From a bacterium HR28 (GTDB lineage: Bacteria > Chloroflexota > Chloroflexia > Thermomicrobiales > Thermomicrobiaceae), in NCBI GenBank assembly GCA_002898255.1, contig BEIE01000001.1, positions 434,001 through 498,000 of the forward strand: DNA of 64,000 bases, given 5' to 3'. A model generated the notes under the pieces. The model was given only the letters and a program-made list of their open reading frames with translations. It had not been told where the DNA came from and did not search any database. Positions 3,629 to 13,961 of this stretch are shown here, one piece after another. A program made the translations under genes and the position numbers. Position 1 is the first letter of the stretch; each line of letters starts with the position of its first letter.

Positions 3629-4654
3629 TTACCGTGCCTGGCGAGCTGGATCCTCCGGCCTCCTTGTGATGGCAAAGGTTGCAGCCGGGTCTTCGGCGGA
3701 GCGACGACCGCCAAAGATCATCGCGGCCCGCAACAGAAAGGCGCCACCGAGCGCAACCAAACTCGCAACTAGCCGCAGTGGTGGTCGAAGCCGGCGCGGC
3801 AGCATCTTGGTCACAATATGCAGGCCCAGGGCAACGCCAGCACTGAGGCGCGTGCCAGCGTAGGCCCACCCTTCTAGGCCATTGCTGAGCGGGCGACCAA
3901 CCACCGGCCCGCTCCCACGCTGCACCGCCTCGAGCAGCACAAGCTCTCCGAGGAGCGCAACCTGCTCCACCCGCTCGAGCGCATGGCGCGCCCGCGCGTT
4001 GCCCGGCCCGCGACCAACAAGGAGTGCGAGCATAGCGGCAGCACTGGAAAGCGCTGAGCAGAGGAAGAGTGGCCCCAGCCGCAGCGCGTTGCGGGCCCAC
4101 AGCGGCACTGCCGTCGCGCCGAGGAGCACACCCGTGTAGCCAGCAAGAAAGAAAGCTGGGAGTGTACTTGCGGCAGCAAGTATCCGGGCAGGAAGACGAC
4201 GCAGGAAGTGAGCAGCCGGATTGCGTTGTCCAAGCCACCCGTCCTCGGCTGCCTGCTGCAGAGCGTTGAGAAAGGCTGTGGCGGTGAAGCCGATGAGGCC
4301 CCAGACGCCAAGCGACATCGGTGAGCGCAATTTGACCACCCGCAGCATGTGGTGGAAACGCTCGGGTCGTCCGAGGTCGATGATGAGCAGCAGCGGCCCC
4401 GGCAGCACCGCTAAGAAGGCGAGGTAGCGACCAACACGCACAATCGGCCGTGCCCAGTGACCACCGACAAGCCGCGCCGCTGCCGCGAGCACTGCACTGC
4501 CGCCAGCGAGCCCACCCAGCACGAAATAGAACACGATCGACCATCGCCAGTGAGGGCCGTGGATGACCGGCAAGCCGTAGTAACTGTCGCGCGTCTCGGC
4601 ACTCACCGGCTCTCCTGGCGCACGCCGGTGCTGCCAGCGACGGATCTCAGTCAT
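3629..4654 (-). CDS. NrfD/PsrC-type membrane anchor of formate dehydrogenase
   Basis: This 341-residue integral membrane protein of the NrfD/PsrC/DmsC type has about eight predicted membrane helices and should pass electrons from the iron-sulfur subunit to the quinone pool. The N-terminus YYGLPVIHGPHWRWSIVFYF, followed by LGGLAGGSAVLAA, is the family signature. NrfD proteins bind quinone and carry no heme, unlike the cytochrome b subunit FdnI of E. coli. The ATG at 4654 lies directly after AAGGAGGTGCGCC and overlaps the stop of the iron-sulfur subunit gene by eight bases, so the three subunits are translationally coupled. It is the last gene of the operon. Confidence 0.9.
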   Translation of the reverse strand: MTEIRRWQHRRAPGEPVSAETRDSYYGLPVIHGPHWRWSIVFYFVLGGLAGGSAVLAAAARLVGGHWARPIVRVGRYLAFLAVLPGPLLLIIDLGRPERFHHMLRVVKLRSPMSLGVWGLIGFTATAFLNALQQAAEDGWLGQRNPAAHFLRRLPARILAAASTLPAFFLAGYTGVLLGATAVPLWARNALRLGPLFLCSALSSAAAMLALLVGRGPGNARARHALERVEQVALLGELVLLEAVQRGSGPVVGRPLSNGLEGWAYAGTRLSAGVALGLHIVTKMLPRRLRPPLRLVASLVALGGAFLLRAAMIFGGRRSAEDPAATFAITRRPEDPARQAR

Positions 4655-5498
4655 GGCGCACCTCCTTACTGCGCCAGAAGGTGACAAGTGTGGCGAGGCC
4701 GAGCGCAAGTGCCGCCAGTGCCGTGGTCAGAAAGGCGGGCAGGACACGTCGCTGCGGGAGTTCTGGCGCAGCTGGCAGGTTATAGACTTCGGGTGGCGCG
4801 GTCAGGATAAAGAAGGCATTGAGCCCGCCGATTCCCCCAGTGCCACCGAGCGCTTCGTCACCGTAGATCTGGGCTTCCACTCCCTGGGCACGGAGCTCGG
4901 CAACGCGCGCTTTCGCTCGATCCATCAGGGCATGCACCGGGCCGAACTGGATCGCATCGGTCGGACAGGCTTTCGAGCAGGCTGGCTCCAGGCCGTCCTT
5001 CAGCCGGTCGTAGCAGAGCGTGCACTTATGCGCTTTGCCATCAAGTGGGCTGAGCGCTGGGACACCGAAGGGGCACGCGGGAACGCAATAGCCGCAGCCA
5101 TTGCAAATGTCCTGTTGAATCACAACGGTGTCGAATTCGGTGCGGATAATCGCCCCGGTGGGACAGGCCTCCATGCATCCGGCATTGACGCAGTGTTTAC
5201 ACACATCGCTGAGCATCAGCCAGTTACTCTGGAAGGGCTGGAGACGCGTTGGACGTCGCCCCTCGCGATCGGCAACACGTTCGATGAAGGCGACATGCCG
5301 CCAGGTGGTTGCACCAAGATCACCGGTGTTGTCGTAACTCATGCCGGTGAAGCCAAAGTCGTCCATCGGCAGCTGGTTCCACTGCTTACAGGCAACCTCA
5401 CACGCCTTGCAGCCGATGCAGAGCGTGGTATCCGTCAGGAACCCAAAGGCACCGGGGCGAGCGCGCGTGCGGCCGACCAGCGTGCTCTCACGGCTCAC
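4647..5498 (-). CDS. formate dehydrogenase iron-sulfur (beta) subunit
   Basis: This 283-residue electron-transfer subunit has four ferredoxin-type cysteine groups: CIGCKACEVACKQWN near residue 28, CKHCVNAGCMEACP, CNGCGYCVPACPFG and CTLCYDRLKDGLEPACSKACP. Together they bind four [4Fe-4S] clusters, as in FdnH. A single hydrophobic helix at the C-terminus (about residues 250-273) should anchor it in the membrane, again as in FdnH. The start is a GTG at 5498, with GAGGAGGTGGGGCG upstream, overlapping the catalytic gene stop as GTGA. It lies between the selenoprotein subunit and the NrfD anchor. Confidence 0.93.
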   Translation of the reverse strand: MSRESTLVGRTRARPGAFGFLTDTTLCIGCKACEVACKQWNQLPMDDFGFTGMSYDNTGDLGATTWRHVAFIERVADREGRRPTRLQPFQSNWLMLSDVCKHCVNAGCMEACPTGAIIRTEFDTVVIQQDICNGCGYCVPACPFGVPALSPLDGKAHKCTLCYDRLKDGLEPACSKACPTDAIQFGPVHALMDRAKARVAELRAQGVEAQIYGDEALGGTGGIGGLNAFFILTAPPEVYNLPAAPELPQRRVLPAFLTTALAALALGLATLVTFWRSKEVRHD

Positions 5499-8400
5499 CG
5501 CCCCACCTCCTCTCGCAGCCGTCCCTTGCGGATCGTGCAGGTGAACGACTTGGCCTCGTGGATGAGCGAGTTGGGGTCTTCAACGAGTGCAGCGAGTTCG
5601 TTGGCGATGCCACCCGTTGCCAGCCCTCCAAAGCCAAAGTGCCAAGGCATGCCGATGACATGCACGGTTCGCCCTGCGATGACAAGCGGCTGGACACGCT
5701 CGGTCACCAGAGCACGGGCTTCTGCACAGCCGCGGGCAGTCTCAACGACGACCCAGTCACCGGTGCTGATGCCGAGTTCACGGGCGAGCTCCGGACTGAT
5801 CTCGACGAAGCCGGCGGGCTGCAACTCGGCCAGCCAGGGCACCCAGCGACTCATGCCACCAGCGGTGTGATGCTCAGTAAGACGGTAGGTCGTGATGACG
5901 TACGGATAGCGCGGGTCACCGATCTCATGATACGGGTTGTCTGGGCGGAGGAAGACTGGTGCCACCGGACTCCGTGGCTGCTCGGGATAGAGCGGGTTGG
6001 TGACCGGTGTCTCCCATGGCTCGTAGTGGGTAGGCAGAGGTCCGTCCAGGAGTCCAAGTGGGACGAAGAGCCATCCCTGTCCGTCAAGCATCATGATGAA
6101 CGGTGCCGTTCCCGGATGCGCATCAAGCCCACGAGCGTCCGGCGGCGACTGATAATCCGGTGGCTTGGTCGCAGGGAAGTCCGGCACATCGTAGCCGACC
6201 CACCGCTGCTGTTCGGGGTCCCACCAGATCCACTTCTTCCGTTCACTCCAGGGGCGTCCCTGGGGGTCAGCCGAGGCGCGATTGTACAGGATCCGGCGGT
6301 TGGCAGGCCAGGCAAAGCCCCAGTCGAGGCTGGCGCGATCATCGCCACGACGTCGCTTGGCACGGTGCTCCCCTTCGGGCGTGACGATGCCCGAATATAT
6401 CCAGCAACCGCAGGCCGTTGAGCCGTCATCAGCCAGCTCGTGAAAGCCCGCAACTGGGCGTCCATCGCTGACCCGGTATCCACTGACCTCACGAGCCACG
6501 GCCATGAGGTCGGGCTCCTGATGCGGTCCCACTGTTGGGTAATCCCACGTCAGTGCGGCGATTTGCCGACCAGCTGGTGAGTCATCACCGGCGTAGAGCT
6601 CCTTAAGGCGCCGCCCGAGATGGAAGACGAAGTGGGCCTCCGAGCGGGCGTCCCCTGGCGGATCGACCGCTTTGTCATGCCACTGGACGAGACGATGCGT
6701 GTTCGTGAACGTTCCGTCTTTTTCAGCAGCAATGGCCGCGGGGAGGAAGAACACTTCGGTCTTGATGTCCTGTGGCCGGACCTCGCCACTCCGCACCTCA
6801 GGAGCGTCATACCAGAAGGATGCGGTTTCAATCTCGTGGACGTCGCGAACAACGAGCCAATCGAGATTGGCTAATGCCTGGCGAGCCAATCGGGCGTTCT
6901 GGCCACCGACGGCCGGATTCATCCCCATGACGAAGAGACCTTTAATGATCCCGTCCTTCATCATGGTCAGAATCGATTGGAACGAGTAGTCGCCGCCAAT
7001 TTTCGGCAGGAGCTCGTAGGCGAAGTCGTTTTCCGGGGTTGCGGCATCTCCATACCACGCTTTGAGGAGAGAAATGAGGAACTTGGGCATGTCGTACCAG
7101 AGACCGGTTGCAGGGCGCTCATGGGCAAAGTAGTCGGCGAGCGTCGCATGCTGCGGGATTGCTCGGGGCATCTTCAGATACCCGGGGAGCAGGTCGAAGA
7201 GGGTCGGGATATCGGTGGACCCTTGGATCGTTGCGTGTCCCCGCAACGCGAGGATCCCACCGCCCGGCCGACCAATGTTGCCGAGCAGGAGCTGGAGCAG
7301 AGCACAGCAGGAAATGATCTGCGTGCCGATCGTGTGCTGCGTCCAGGCAACTGCATAGCAGAACGCTGTGGTACGGTCGCGGCCCGAGTTGGCAAGGATC
7401 GTCTCGGCGACTTCGACAAAGAGATCGCGGGGAACACCACAGGCTTGCTCGACGATTTCCGGTGTGTAGCGCGCAAAGTGGCGTTTCACCACCTGCAACG
7501 CACAGTTGGGGTGCTGGAGTGTCGGATCGCGCTCGGGTTCGATGCGCGGGCGACATGGCCAGCGCTCCCCCTCCAGTGGTTGTACCCGGCCAGCATACTG
7601 CCAGCTAGAAGGATCGTACCAGCGCTGCTGCGGATCGTAGCCGCTGAAAACCCCAGCCAAGTCTTCTGTATCACGGAAGTCGGGAGAGACGATCACACTG
7701 GCATTCGTGTAGTGCAGCACATACTCACGGAAGAAGGGATCGCTGTTCCAGCGCTCGGAGTTCAGGACGTAGTTCACCAGAGCGCCGAGGAAGACGAGGT
7801 CGCTTCCCGGGCGGATTGGCACGTGGAGGTCGGCCAGGGCCGAGGTGCGTGAAAAGCGGGGATCGACGTGAATGACGCGAGCGCCACGCTGGCGGGCCTT
7901 CACGACAAAGCGAAAGCCGACCGGATGGTTCTCGGCCATATTTGAGCCCATGATGACGATGCAGTCACTCTCGGCCAGGCTGGCCAGAGTGGTTGTTGCA
8001 CCACCTCGTCCGAGTCGGGCGCCCAGACCGGGCACCGTGCTGGAGTGTCATATGCGCGCCTGATTCTCGACGGCGACGATGCCAAGTCCACCGGTAAAGA
8101 GCTTTTTGATGAGGTAGTTCTCCTCGTTGTCCAGGGTCGCTCCACCCAAGTGCGCGATCCCCAGTGTTCGGTTGACCACCAGACCGTTTTCATCACGATG
8201 GACGAAGGTGGCATCACGGGTTTGCTTGACAAGCTGGGCAATGCGTTCCATCGCCCAGTCCAGGGAACGCTCCTCCCAATGGTCACTATAGGGTGCTCGA
8301 TACTTGACGCGGAGCTCGCGTAGCGGGCTGTGAATCAGCTGCCAGGTTGCTGCCCCTTTGGGGCAGAGGGTGCCGCCGTTGATCGGGCTTTCGTAGTTTC

Positions 8401-8584
8401 CTTCGATATCGAGGATATGGCCGTTCTTGGTATAGACGAGCTGGGAGCAGCCGACCGCACAGTATGGGCAGACGCTGATGCTCACCTCGGCACCACGGAT
8501 GCGGGACCGTGCCTGGCGTGTGGCCTGGCTTACTGGATTCGGAACTAAACCAATGTGATTGCGGAGGAGGTGAAAAAGACCCAT
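5495..8584 (-). CDS. fdnG: formate dehydrogenase catalytic subunit, selenoprotein
   Basis: This molybdopterin enzyme oxidises formate to CO2. The gene reads through an in-frame TGA at 8048-8050 as selenocysteine 179, giving 1029 residues, close to the FdnG/FdoG length. The context ENQARI-U-HSSTV matches the FDH active site, including the histidine after Sec, and a SECIS hairpin follows at once. The N-terminal [4Fe-4S] site is C39, C42, C46 and C74. The domain order is Fe-S, two central pterin-binding domains, and a C-terminal dinucleotide-binding barrel ending near GMPWHFGFGG. I see no twin-arginine signal, in contrast to FdnG, so the enzyme probably faces the cytoplasm. The ATG at 8584 has AAAGGAGG upstream; a GTG at 8605 is less likely. 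The gene symbol is by analogy. If the TGA is not read as Sec, two truncated ORFs result (8584-8048 and 8035-5495). Confidence 0.93.
8018..8050 (-). promoter_or_regulatory. Sec codon and bacterial SECIS element
   Basis: The TGA at 8050-8048 is followed by a perfect 7-bp stem, GGTGCCC (8036-8030) with GGGCGCC (8024-8018), closing the loop GGTCT (8029-8025). Exactly 18 bases separate TGA from GGTCT. As I recall it, E. coli fdhF has the same spacing and the same GGUCU loop, which is the SelB binding site. This is strong evidence for selenocysteine insertion. Confidence 0.9.
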
Positions 8585-8697
8585 CCTGTCTGTGCCTCCT
8601 TTCACCGTGGAACAGTTTACCGAGCGCGACGGGATCTCGGTTAGCAGGAGACACGGGCGATCGCTCCAGGCATGGTGAATTGCTGGAGGCTACCTGT

Positions 8698-8804: not shown

Positions 8805-9104
8805 CTAGTGCCCAATCATCCAGGGGCGACCATGGGAGCGGTACCAACGCGGTCTCGGCTCGGGATCGGGCGCGGATAGGCCGAGTTCTTCACGAGAAAC
8901 CACACGAGGCTCATGCCGTGACCGCTCCTCACGTTCCAGCCCTTCGACAATCCACTTTGGAGTTCGCGGTACATTTGGCGGAGTGAAGAGGCGTCGTGCC
9001 AGCTTTCCGCAGTAAGGGCACGTCAATGGCGCCCCTGCATCAACGAGCGGTCGGCGAATCTCAAGAAGCCCGTCACTATCACACCAGTAAGCATAGAGCG
9101 GCAT
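8805..9104 (-). CDS. fmdB: FmdB-family zinc-ribbon protein
   Basis: This 99-residue protein begins MPLYAYWCDSDGLLE and carries CPYCG about 25 residues later. That gives the paired cysteines of the FmdB regulatory zinc ribbon, although the first knuckle has only one cysteine where CxxC is usual. In Methylophilus methylotrophus FmdB is linked to formamidase expression. The polar, Arg/Glu-rich tail is of unknown function. The ATG at 9104 follows GGGAGGATTCTG, and a longer in-frame extension to 9278 lacks a site. It sits 29 bases behind the amide channel gene, in the same transcript as fmdA, which supports the assignment. Confidence 0.85.
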   Translation of the reverse strand: MPLYAYWCDSDGLLEIRRPLVDAGAPLTCPYCGKLARRLFTPPNVPRTPKWIVEGLEREERSRHEPRVVSREELGLSAPDPEPRPRWYRSHGRPWMIGH

Positions 9105-9133
9105 CAGAATCCTCCCGAGAGCTGTCCCGTGTG

Positions 9134-9658
9134 CTAGGCAACGACCGGTTGTAGGTGGCCCATGATGATAAGATAGCCTGGCAACCAGGCGGTAAAGATC
9201 CCCTCCAGGATAGTCAGCCAGGCAACAAGGGATAGGGAAATTCGTCGAGGAACAAGAAGCAGAAAGTAAAAGAACCAAAGCACAGCCCAGGCCAACCAGT
9301 TAATGGTCAACCAATAGCCCCAGGTCGTAGCGGCTCGGATGGCAGTTTCAATTCCGACTGCAACTGCTGTAATGGCCACAAATAGACAGAACCAACCGAG
9401 ACCACGCCCGTCAAAGCTGAAGATACGGTTGATAGCCACCCACAAGTAGGTGAAGGCGAAAAGAAGGACGAGCGCACCAAATGAAACCCTATTGATGTCG
9501 TCCGGATTTCTAACCGCAGTTGTAATTGCTGCAATGAAACCAACTGTGCCGCTGAAGAGGTTAATCACCGCGATTTCGCGATCACCAATCCGGCCACCGA
9601 GCCACAGTCCATTCAGGAAGAGAACAGCACCAACCCAGAGAAGCACAAGGCCAATCAT
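9134..9658 (-). CDS. AmiS/UreI family amide/urea channel
   Basis: This 174-residue, strongly hydrophobic protein has about six membrane helices and the family start IGLVLLWVGAVLFLNGLWLGG. AmiS/UreI proteins are channels for urea or short-chain amides in the cytoplasmic membrane. Placed 86 bases after formamidase and before fmdB, it most likely admits formamide. The ATG at 9658 follows GGGAGGCACTTGCT. The gene ends 29 bases before fmdB. The urea alternative is less likely because no urease genes are seen in the window. Confidence 0.9.
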   Translation of the reverse strand: MIGLVLLWVGAVLFLNGLWLGGRIGDREIAVINLFSGTVGFIAAITTAVRNPDDINRVSFGALVLLFAFTYLWVAINRIFSFDGRGLGWFCLFVAITAVAVGIETAIRAATTWGYWLTINWLAWAVLWFFYFLLLVPRRISLSLVAWLTILEGIFTAWLPGYLIIMGHLQPVVA

Positions 9659-9744
9659 AGCAAGTGCCTCCCTATCCGGGGGCGTGGTCGCACCGGGCAT
9701 CATCCCGGTGCGACCACCTGACACTACGCGGCTTACGCAACGAC

Positions 9745-10998
9745 TCACGTTGCACGCGCGACCTGTCCGCTGGTCGGTGCGGTTGGCGGTTCTTCAGGCA
9801 GAATTGGTCGCTCAAAGATCTCTGTTGGAAGATACAATGTCACGCACGCATTAGGAATATCAACGATTCCGCTTACCCGAACCTCGATCGGAGCAGCGCC
9901 AAGGATAATGTATGCCTGCTCAGCAGTATAGCCGAATTTCTTCAGATATTCGATAGCATTAAGACAGGCCCGACGCATCGCTACAGTTGCATCAAGGTAG
10001 AGCTGCTTGCCCGTCCTTTCGTCAACTGAGATGCCCTCAAAAACGAGATAGTTCGTGTAGCGAGGTTCATAAGGGCTCGAACGGAAGATGGGATTCGTGA
10101 TTCCATACTTTGCCACACCACCTTTGATCAGGTCAACGTGGAGATCAATCCAACCTGCCATTTCGATAGCGCCGCAGAACGTAATCTCACCGTCACCCTG
10201 GGAGAAGTGAAGGTCACCCATAGAGAGCTTGGCACCAGGTACATACACAGGGAAGTAGCAACGCGAGCCACGGGTAAGGTTTTTGATGTCACAGTTGCCG
10301 CCGTGTTCGCGTGGCGGAATAGTACGCGCGGCCTCGCGTGCGGCTCGTTCGAACTCAGGCCCCTTCAGTGTGCCGAGTACGGCATTCTTCTCGAGAGGGG
10401 GTAGCGCGAGGGGTGGTACTCGGTTTGGATCAGTGGCGATAAGCTCCGCTTCACGTCGGTTCCACTCCTGCAGGAGTTCGTGCGACGGAGCGCAACCGAT
10501 CAACCCAGGATGGGCAATACCTACGAAGCGTACACCCGGCACATGTCGAGAAGTGCAGGTTGTGCCGTGAAGATCCCAAATTGCCTTATAAGCATCAGGG
10601 AAGTAGTCAGTGAGAAAGCCTCCCCCATTTACCTTCGCAAAGATACCTGTATAGCCCCACTCTGTGGTTGGCGAGTTGTGCGGTGTCTTCGTTCCGTGTG
10701 GAAAAGGACCAAGGTCAAGGATGTCAACGATGAGGAGATCTCCAGGCTCAGCTCCTTCTACCGCTATTGGGCCACTCAGCACATGATTGCGAGTCAGATC
10801 GACGTCACGGACATCGTTCGCAGAATCATCGTTGCGAATTTGTCCGTCTGTCCATTCCTGACATTCCACCCTGAAGACCTCGCCTGGTTTCACTGATGCT
10901 ACCGGAGGGATATCAGGGTGCCAGCGATTGTGCCCGGGAACAGGTTGCTCTGGCCAAGGCTTTGTCAGGTCAACCTCGAAGACCACCTTTGGGGGCAT
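9745..10998 (-). CDS. fmdA: formamidase
   Basis: This 417-residue enzyme of the acetamidase/formamidase family hydrolyses formamide to formate and ammonia in the cytoplasm. The length and the sequence, including MGDLHFSQGDGEITFCGAIE, HGGNCDIKNLT and RYTNYLVFEG, are typical of FmdA. The formamidase candidate catalytic residues in this family are acidic residues and a cysteine in the GDGEITFCGA region, which is intact. The ATG at 10998 follows GGAAGGAGG by five bases. It is the first gene of a transcript that continues with the amide channel and fmdB and perhaps the formate dehydrogenase, which would consume the formate made here. A strong promoter lies at 11197-11225. Confidence 0.93.
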   Translation of the reverse strand: MPPKVVFEVDLTKPWPEQPVPGHNRWHPDIPPVASVKPGEVFRVECQEWTDGQIRNDDSANDVRDVDLTRNHVLSGPIAVEGAEPGDLLIVDILDLGPFPHGTKTPHNSPTTEWGYTGIFAKVNGGGFLTDYFPDAYKAIWDLHGTTCTSRHVPGVRFVGIAHPGLIGCAPSHELLQEWNRREAELIATDPNRVPPLALPPLEKNAVLGTLKGPEFERAAREAARTIPPREHGGNCDIKNLTRGSRCYFPVYVPGAKLSMGDLHFSQGDGEITFCGAIEMAGWIDLHVDLIKGGVAKYGITNPIFRSSPYEPRYTNYLVFEGISVDERTGKQLYLDATVAMRRACLNAIEYLKKFGYTAEQAYIILGAAPIEVRVSGIVDIPNACVTLYLPTEIFERPILPEEPPTAPTSGQVARAT

Positions 10999-11046
10999 GG
11001 TTTTCCTCCTTCCCTGCACCGGTCAGGGCATTCCTGCAACCAAGGG

Positions 11047-12624: not shown

Positions 12625-13800
12625 TTACTCCTCTCGTGCGACTGCTGCTCCGACCGGTGCTGACTTGTCGCTCGCCGTCTGTGAGGGAACGTGCGGTAGA
12701 AACCACGTCTGGGCAATCCAGGTGGGGAGCAACGCCGAGCCGATGACAGCAGTGACAAGCGCAGTGTATTGGGCACGGTCAATAATCCCATTATTGAGCC
12801 CGAAGAGCGCCGAGATAGTGCCGAAGGTGAGTCCAGTTGACATTAGTAGGGTGGTGTAGGCTCCGCTCCGGCGCCCCAGACGAAACAGTGCGGTGAGCGG
12901 ACCAACCCCGATCAACTTGGCCAGCGTTTTCACGAGCAACAATGCGACCACAAGACCGAAGCCACTGATGAGGGCTGGAAGAGAGACATAGAGCCCTGCC
13001 TTGAGGAAATACCAGGGTGTCAGCAGTGCGAAAGCGATCGTCCGCAGGCGCACCATCAGCGTCCGCTGGTGCGTGAAAATCCCGGCGACGACCAGACCGA
13101 CAAGGTAAGCCGGGAGCACGGCCTCGCTTTTCGCTCGCGTGGCCAGCCAACCGAGGAAGAAGAGGACCAGCAAGAGGAACTTCACTTCCGGCTCACTCAC
13201 CCGGTTTCCCCACACGGTGACGACGAAGTGCGTCGCCCGCGGGAGAAGGGCCAAGACAGTTGTCATAGTGACGACAAAAACGATCAGCCACCGGTTGTAG
13301 TTGGCAAAGATGAGTCCCAAGGCCAAAACGGTACCGAAGTCGTTCACAAAACAGGCAGCGAGGATTAGCTTGCCGAGTTCAGTTTCATTTAGGCCAGTCT
13401 CGACCATGACGGCATAGACGACCGCGACAGAGGTTGTTGAGAGCGCAATGCCAGCAATCCAGGCCTGCGGCGTTGTCCAGCCAGCGATGAAGCGGGCAAA
13501 AGCTGCAGCGCCGAGGAAGGGGAAGAGAAAACCCGCTATACCAATGGCCAGGCTCGGCTTGAGGTGGCGGCGCAGCGCTTCTGGTTCGATCTCTGCGCCA
13601 GCCAAGAACGTCAGCAGTACCGCACCAAAGCTGGCAAACGTGTTGATCCAGTCAGTTACCTGGAGATGAAGGAGATTACCCGCCGCAACGCCAACCAGGA
13701 TCTCTAAGAGCGCAACTGAGATACCAAGGCGGATCGAGAAGAGACTGGCAACGAGCGCAAGTCCGGTCCACACCGCCGCCATTGCCCAGGTCTGTTCCAT
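12625..13800 (-). CDS. CPA2-type cation/proton antiporter
   Basis: This 391-residue polytopic membrane protein with about 12 helices belongs to the Kef/Na+-H+ exchanger (CPA2) family. Features include LTFLAGAEIEPEALRRH in helix 3-4, the GIALSTTSVAVVYAVM segment, and the FVNDFGTVLALG segment carrying the ND pair that matches the usual ND or DD ion-binding site. It ends without a TrkA-N domain, so regulation may be through the Usp protein encoded next. The ion (Na+ or K+) cannot be told. The ATG at 13800 follows GGGGGTAACACC. A structured leader and a promoter lie upstream. Confidence 0.9.
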   Translation of the reverse strand: MEQTWAMAAVWTGLALVASLFSIRLGISVALLEILVGVAAGNLLHLQVTDWINTFASFGAVLLTFLAGAEIEPEALRRHLKPSLAIGIAGFLFPFLGAAAFARFIAGWTTPQAWIAGIALSTTSVAVVYAVMVETGLNETELGKLILAACFVNDFGTVLALGLIFANYNRWLIVFVVTMTTVLALLPRATHFVVTVWGNRVSEPEVKFLLLVLFFLGWLATRAKSEAVLPAYLVGLVVAGIFTHQRTLMVRLRTIAFALLTPWYFLKAGLYVSLPALISGFGLVVALLLVKTLAKLIGVGPLTALFRLGRRSGAYTTLLMSTGLTFGTISALFGLNNGIIDRAQYTALVTAVIGSALLPTWIAQTWFLPHVPSQTASDKSAPVGAAVAREE

Positions 13801-13834: not shown

Positions 13835-13890
13835 CACACGGTCAGGGAACAACCAAAGGCTCCTGCCCACAGACCGTGTGGACAGGAGCC
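13835..13890 (-). promoter_or_regulatory. leader with two mutually exclusive stems
   Basis: The antiporter leader can form stem A, about 13 bp with one mismatch (13858-13870 with 13878-13890), topped by GACCG. Alternatively it can form stem B, a perfect 9-bp pairing of CACACGGTC (minus strand, 13880-13872) with GACCGTGTG (13843-13835). The two share bases and cannot coexist, as in attenuators and riboswitches. Stem A is followed by a U-rich stretch. No known class is matched. Confidence 0.5.
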
Positions 13891-13961
13891 ATCAGCCGTC
13901 AGCGGCAGTTCGGGCGCAAGACACGCCCAGGCGGACTCCATCGCCCTCTTGACCTGAGAGC

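Follow-up and report, generated by a model that had tools for sequence, protein, structure and literature searches.

A predicted selenocysteine-containing formate dehydrogenase of a Thermomicrobium species: a common type of selenoprotein gene in a formamidase neighborhood

Introduction

The formate dehydrogenase (FDH) alpha subunit FdhA and one other protein are the most widespread selenoproteins of bacteria (PMC1794560), and a 2015 survey already listed the Chloroflexi among the phyla that decode selenocysteine (Sec) (PMC5322559). The described systems that most resemble the locus studied here are FDH-N (FdnGHI), the NCBIfam family NF041513 (formate dehydrogenase) and the fdh locus on the plasmid of Thermomicrobium roseum DSM 5159 (WP_143714751.1). 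The locus lies in a 64,000-nucleotide stretch of DNA from a Thermomicrobium species, referred to below as the window. Its alpha subunit shares full-length homology, a Sec-type active site and an adjoining 4Fe-4S beta subunit with the FDH-N alpha subunit (FdnG, PDB 1kqf; TIGR01553). However, no Tat signal was seen in the window protein, and the third gene encodes an NrfD-type protein (PF03916) rather than the cytochrome b FdnI. By score, the window protein belongs to NF041513 (1509.6 bits against a cutoff of 1400), and nothing tested sets it apart from that family. The plasmid-borne fdh of T. roseum and a second FDH of the host share the TGA, the GGTCT-loop SECIS element and the alpha-beta-NrfD gene order with the window locus and are approximately 57 to 59% identical to the window protein, but unlike it they have a Tat signal and an adjoining fdhE gene.

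Results and Discussion

Reading frame and selenocysteine codon

When TGA was translated as Sec (U), the minus strand of the window from 8605 to 5495 formed a single frame with one internal stop, the TGA at which a mechanical list of open reading frames splits the gene (Table 1). This agrees with the first-pass annotation, which had described two same-frame open reading frames parted only by a TGA in the context ENQARI-TGA-HSSTV. The mechanical frame starts at a GTG at 8605, while AAAGGAGG stands before the ATG at 8584, the likely start of fdhA. The joined protein matched the full length of FDH alpha subunits with solved structures (PDB 1h0h, E = 1.7e-228; PDB 1kqf [FdnG], E = 4.8e-222), and the alignment to FdnG-type enzymes that had been suggested as a check placed the TGA on their Sec. 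In 1h0h, the aligned residue of chain A is printed as X, which we take to be Sec. The protein also scored above the TIGR01553 cutoff (1009.8 versus 814.2 bits) and contained the three expected molybdopterin-oxidoreductase domains (Pfam). No twin-arginine (RR) motif was found before the Fe4S4 domain of the window FdhA or in its close relatives. Judged from these sequence comparisons, the minus-strand region from 8584 to 5495 is one FDH alpha gene interrupted only by the TGA at 8050-8048, and it should be annotated as a single protein. The expectation that automatic callers would split such a gene does not necessarily hold, as the second FDH's orthologue on the T. roseum plasmid is recorded by NCBI as a single coding sequence of 1062 codons including the TGA.

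Table 1. Features of the window fdhA locus (window coordinates)
Feature	Position	Strand	Remarks
NrfD/PsrC-type membrane subunit (likely quinone-reactive anchor)	3629..4708	-	PF03916
FDH beta subunit, 4Fe-4S ferredoxin-type	4647..5498	-	One C-terminal hydrophobic stretch; overlaps fdhA end; adjoins fdhA in most loci
fdhA, FDH alpha subunit	5495..8584	-	Length 1029 residues, one of them Sec; starts with ATG 8584 and ends with TGA 5497-5495; no Tat signal seen
Bacterial SECIS (predicted)	8018..8047	-	30 nt directly 3' of TGA; 7-bp stem (5' arm 8036-8030), GGTCT loop (8029-8025)
In-frame TGA, predicted Sec codon	8050-8048	-	Codon 186 counted from 8605; context ENQARI-U-HSSTV; aligned to X (taken as Sec) of PDB 1h0h chain A; TGA in 79/80 loci
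FmdB-like zinc-ribbon protein	8805..9101	-	Weak match; PF09723 below cutoff
AmiS/UreI-type amide/urea channel	9134..9748	-	PF02293
Formamidase FmdA (formamide to formate and ammonia)	9745..11019	-	NF045496, 684.5 bits versus cutoff of 500; PF03069

SECIS element

The SECIS element of Escherichia coli fdhF has a GGUCU loop and an 18-nt spacing from the UGA to the loop. The hairpin in the window (GGUGCCC-GGUCU-GGGCGCC) resembles it in both respects, with a loop that starts exactly 18 nt past the TGA, as the first-pass annotation had pointed out, but differs in stem sequence; it is the predicted SelB-binding site. Its folding energy was not unusual (z = -0.16), and its match to the Rfam SECIS_3 model was below the gathering score (24 versus 63 bits). 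Neither of these measures is decisive alone, and the proof is comparative. The hairpin is kept at a fixed distance from the TGA across relatives: among 95 TGA sequences, a set from which known duplicates had been dropped, the loop read GGTCT, AGTCT or AGTTT in all 95, and at least 6 of the 7 stem pairs were formed in 92. The five Cys versions of the enzyme all had other loops, and four of them had damaged stems. Codons 191 and 195 are both fourfold degenerate at their third positions, which pair in the stem, and these two positions were complementary in 97% of sequences, compared with 61% expected. This excess was reached in none of 10,000 shuffles, which are uncorrected for relatedness, and was the highest of 14,440 such site pairs, with none equal, a comparison that corrects for relatedness in part.

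Selenocysteine machinery and its distribution

All components of the bacterial Sec-insertion mechanism were present in the host genome (3.12 Mb, 99.6% complete), as predicted from the gene itself: tRNA-Sec with a UCA anticodon (contig C4, 73.1 bits), SelA (contig C5, 548.6 bits versus a cutoff of 267.9), SelB (contig C3, 365 versus 242 bits) and SelD (contig C1, 359.5 versus 125 bits). The findings confirm at the sequence level that the genus should make selenoproteins. The host selD gene (L136:4310-5446, minus strand) has an in-frame TGA of its own at codon 42 (context ASCAGUAGKLAP), followed by a candidate hairpin. Other SelD proteins have Cys at this site, and Sec is found at the corresponding site in others. 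SelD itself is therefore probably a selenoprotein. A genome-wide pattern search for TGA with GGTCTG returned 37 matches in the host and 57 in the reversed control and, being not above control, provided no further selenoprotein candidates.

The Sec trait had been described at first pass as uncommon in the Chloroflexota. However, a phylum-wide sample of 399 genomes contained 308 with tRNA-Sec, so that Sec decoding is the common state rather than the exception among them, and the trait had already been reported for the Chloroflexi (PMC5322559). Within the class, 73 of 100 genomes had tRNA-Sec and 38 of 100 had a close FDH. Among the approximately 32 class genomes with a TGA-containing FDH, tRNA-Sec was found in 27 and not found in 5, a point against Sec decoding, although all five are fragmented assemblies. 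As the Sec-FDH trait is both widespread and already described, the window gene is real but ordinary, belonging to a standard kind of selenoprotein gene that these bacteria widely share and that has been annotated before. The new details are the formamidase and amide channel neighborhood, the NrfD-type membrane subunit, the lack of a Tat signal and the prophage at the tRNA-Sec gene, and the gain lies mainly in annotating the gene correctly and in reconstructing the metabolism (two Sec-FDHs and a link to formamide).

Proposed decoding and its alternatives

FdhA is almost certainly a Mo-pterin/Fe-S catalytic subunit of the FDH-N type, in which the UGA at 8050-8048 would be read as Sec, from which electrons would reach quinone via the beta and NrfD subunits, and to which formamide would supply part of the formate. 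By analogy with the known bacterial mechanism, SelB carrying Sec-tRNA(Sec) would bind the GGUCU-loop hairpin just 3' of the UGA, and it is this binding that would cause the codon to be read as Sec. The Sec side chain would then serve as a ligand of the active-site Mo or W.

The two mechanical open reading frames flanking the TGA could also be explained by a pseudogene or by a sequencing or assembly error, with the TGA derived from a Cys (TGC/TGT) or Trp (TGG) codon and each half either a relic or a protein in its own right. This is highly improbable, as 79 of the 80 related loci in other genomes carry the same codon (and the remaining one TGC), homology to solved FDHs runs continuously through the join, and the SECIS element is conserved and covarying. 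Moreover, most codon differences between the window gene and close relatives were synonymous, both before and after the TGA, and there was no other stop; compared with locus L024, 50 synonymous and 6 other differences lay upstream and 157 and 25 downstream, a pattern that points to purifying selection on either side of the codon. Other systems show readthrough of TGA, and the codon could in principle be read other than as Sec, by a near-cognate Trp or Arg tRNA or through general TGA reassignment. Nothing specific favors such a reading, and we give it scarcely any credence: in the host, TGA serves as an ordinary stop (e.g., at the end of fdhA, 5497-5495) and a complete Sec machinery is present, and the codon occupies the position of the Sec ligand and alternates only with the Cys codons TGC and TGT, further loci from the class having either TGA or a Cys codon. 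Decoding as Sec, the interpretation made at first pass, is therefore retained. An internal TAG or TAA was listed for some FDH matches in related genomes; recoding of these codons as Sec was rejected, since in those matches that were fetched and that the alignment covered, the TAG or TAA terminated the gene itself and the site carried TGA or a Cys codon, and since the anticodon was UCA in all 17 tRNA-Sec genes checked. Three genomes (L114, L115 and L116; G018-G020) had tRNA-Sec together with a Cys version of the window-type FDH, and other selenoproteins probably maintain the Sec trait there.

Gene neighborhood and electron transfer

The order of the alpha, 4Fe-4S beta and NrfD genes was kept in most relatives' loci, and formate electrons may pass from the alpha subunit through the beta and NrfD-type subunits to the quinone pool. 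The formamidase, AmiS/UreI channel and FmdB-like genes (8805-11019) lie upstream of fdhA on the same strand, and seven loci of relatives (L026-L031 and L038) also have formamidase and/or the channel close to fdhA. This gene order suggests that part of the formate could come from formamide via the neighboring formamidase and channel, and together with the linkage in relatives it makes a formamide-to-formate-to-quinone route plausible. Farther upstream on the minus strand, a fluoride riboswitch (13876-13954; RF01734, 46.8 bits) directly precedes a cation/proton antiporter-like open reading frame (12625-13800).

The second FDH alpha gene of the host (C2:344550-347627) has the same TGA and GGTCT loop, and its product starts with the twin-arginine signal MAVAVSRRQFLKVGG. 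Its operon (L121:6380-12507) also encodes a 4Fe-4S subunit, an NrfD subunit and FdhE. In addition to Sec decoding, the two enzymes may differ in location, the window Sec-FDH being cytoplasmic and acting in formamide use, and the second being exported for periplasmic formate. The missing twin-arginine motif in the window protein and its close relatives points this way, as do the adjoining genes, formamidase and AmiS in one case and FdhE in the other. However, the beta subunit in the window still has a hydrophobic stretch at its C terminus, like its counterparts in exported complexes, and the formamidase linkage occurs in only some loci of the family, and we therefore hold this division of labor to be possible but tentative. 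The stronger claim, that a nonexported, NrfD-anchored Sec-FDH is dedicated to formamide-derived formate beside a second, exported Sec-FDH in one thermophile, is rather unlikely; if true, it would represent a selenium-dependent formamide-to-quinone pathway, of which we found no description.

Prophage at the tRNA-Sec gene

In the host region G000:C4:3053-58908 (L158-L160), a tyrosine integrase gene lies approximately 70 nt downstream of the tRNA-Sec gene, and a perfect copy of approximately 65 bp of tRNA-Sec, from the anticodon arm to the 3' end, recurs in direct orientation at a distance of 55,756 bases. The interval contains a terminase, an amidase, a very long tape measure-like open reading frame and a family A DNA polymerase. 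It seems to be a prophage of approximately 56 kb that uses tRNA-Sec as its putative attachment site.
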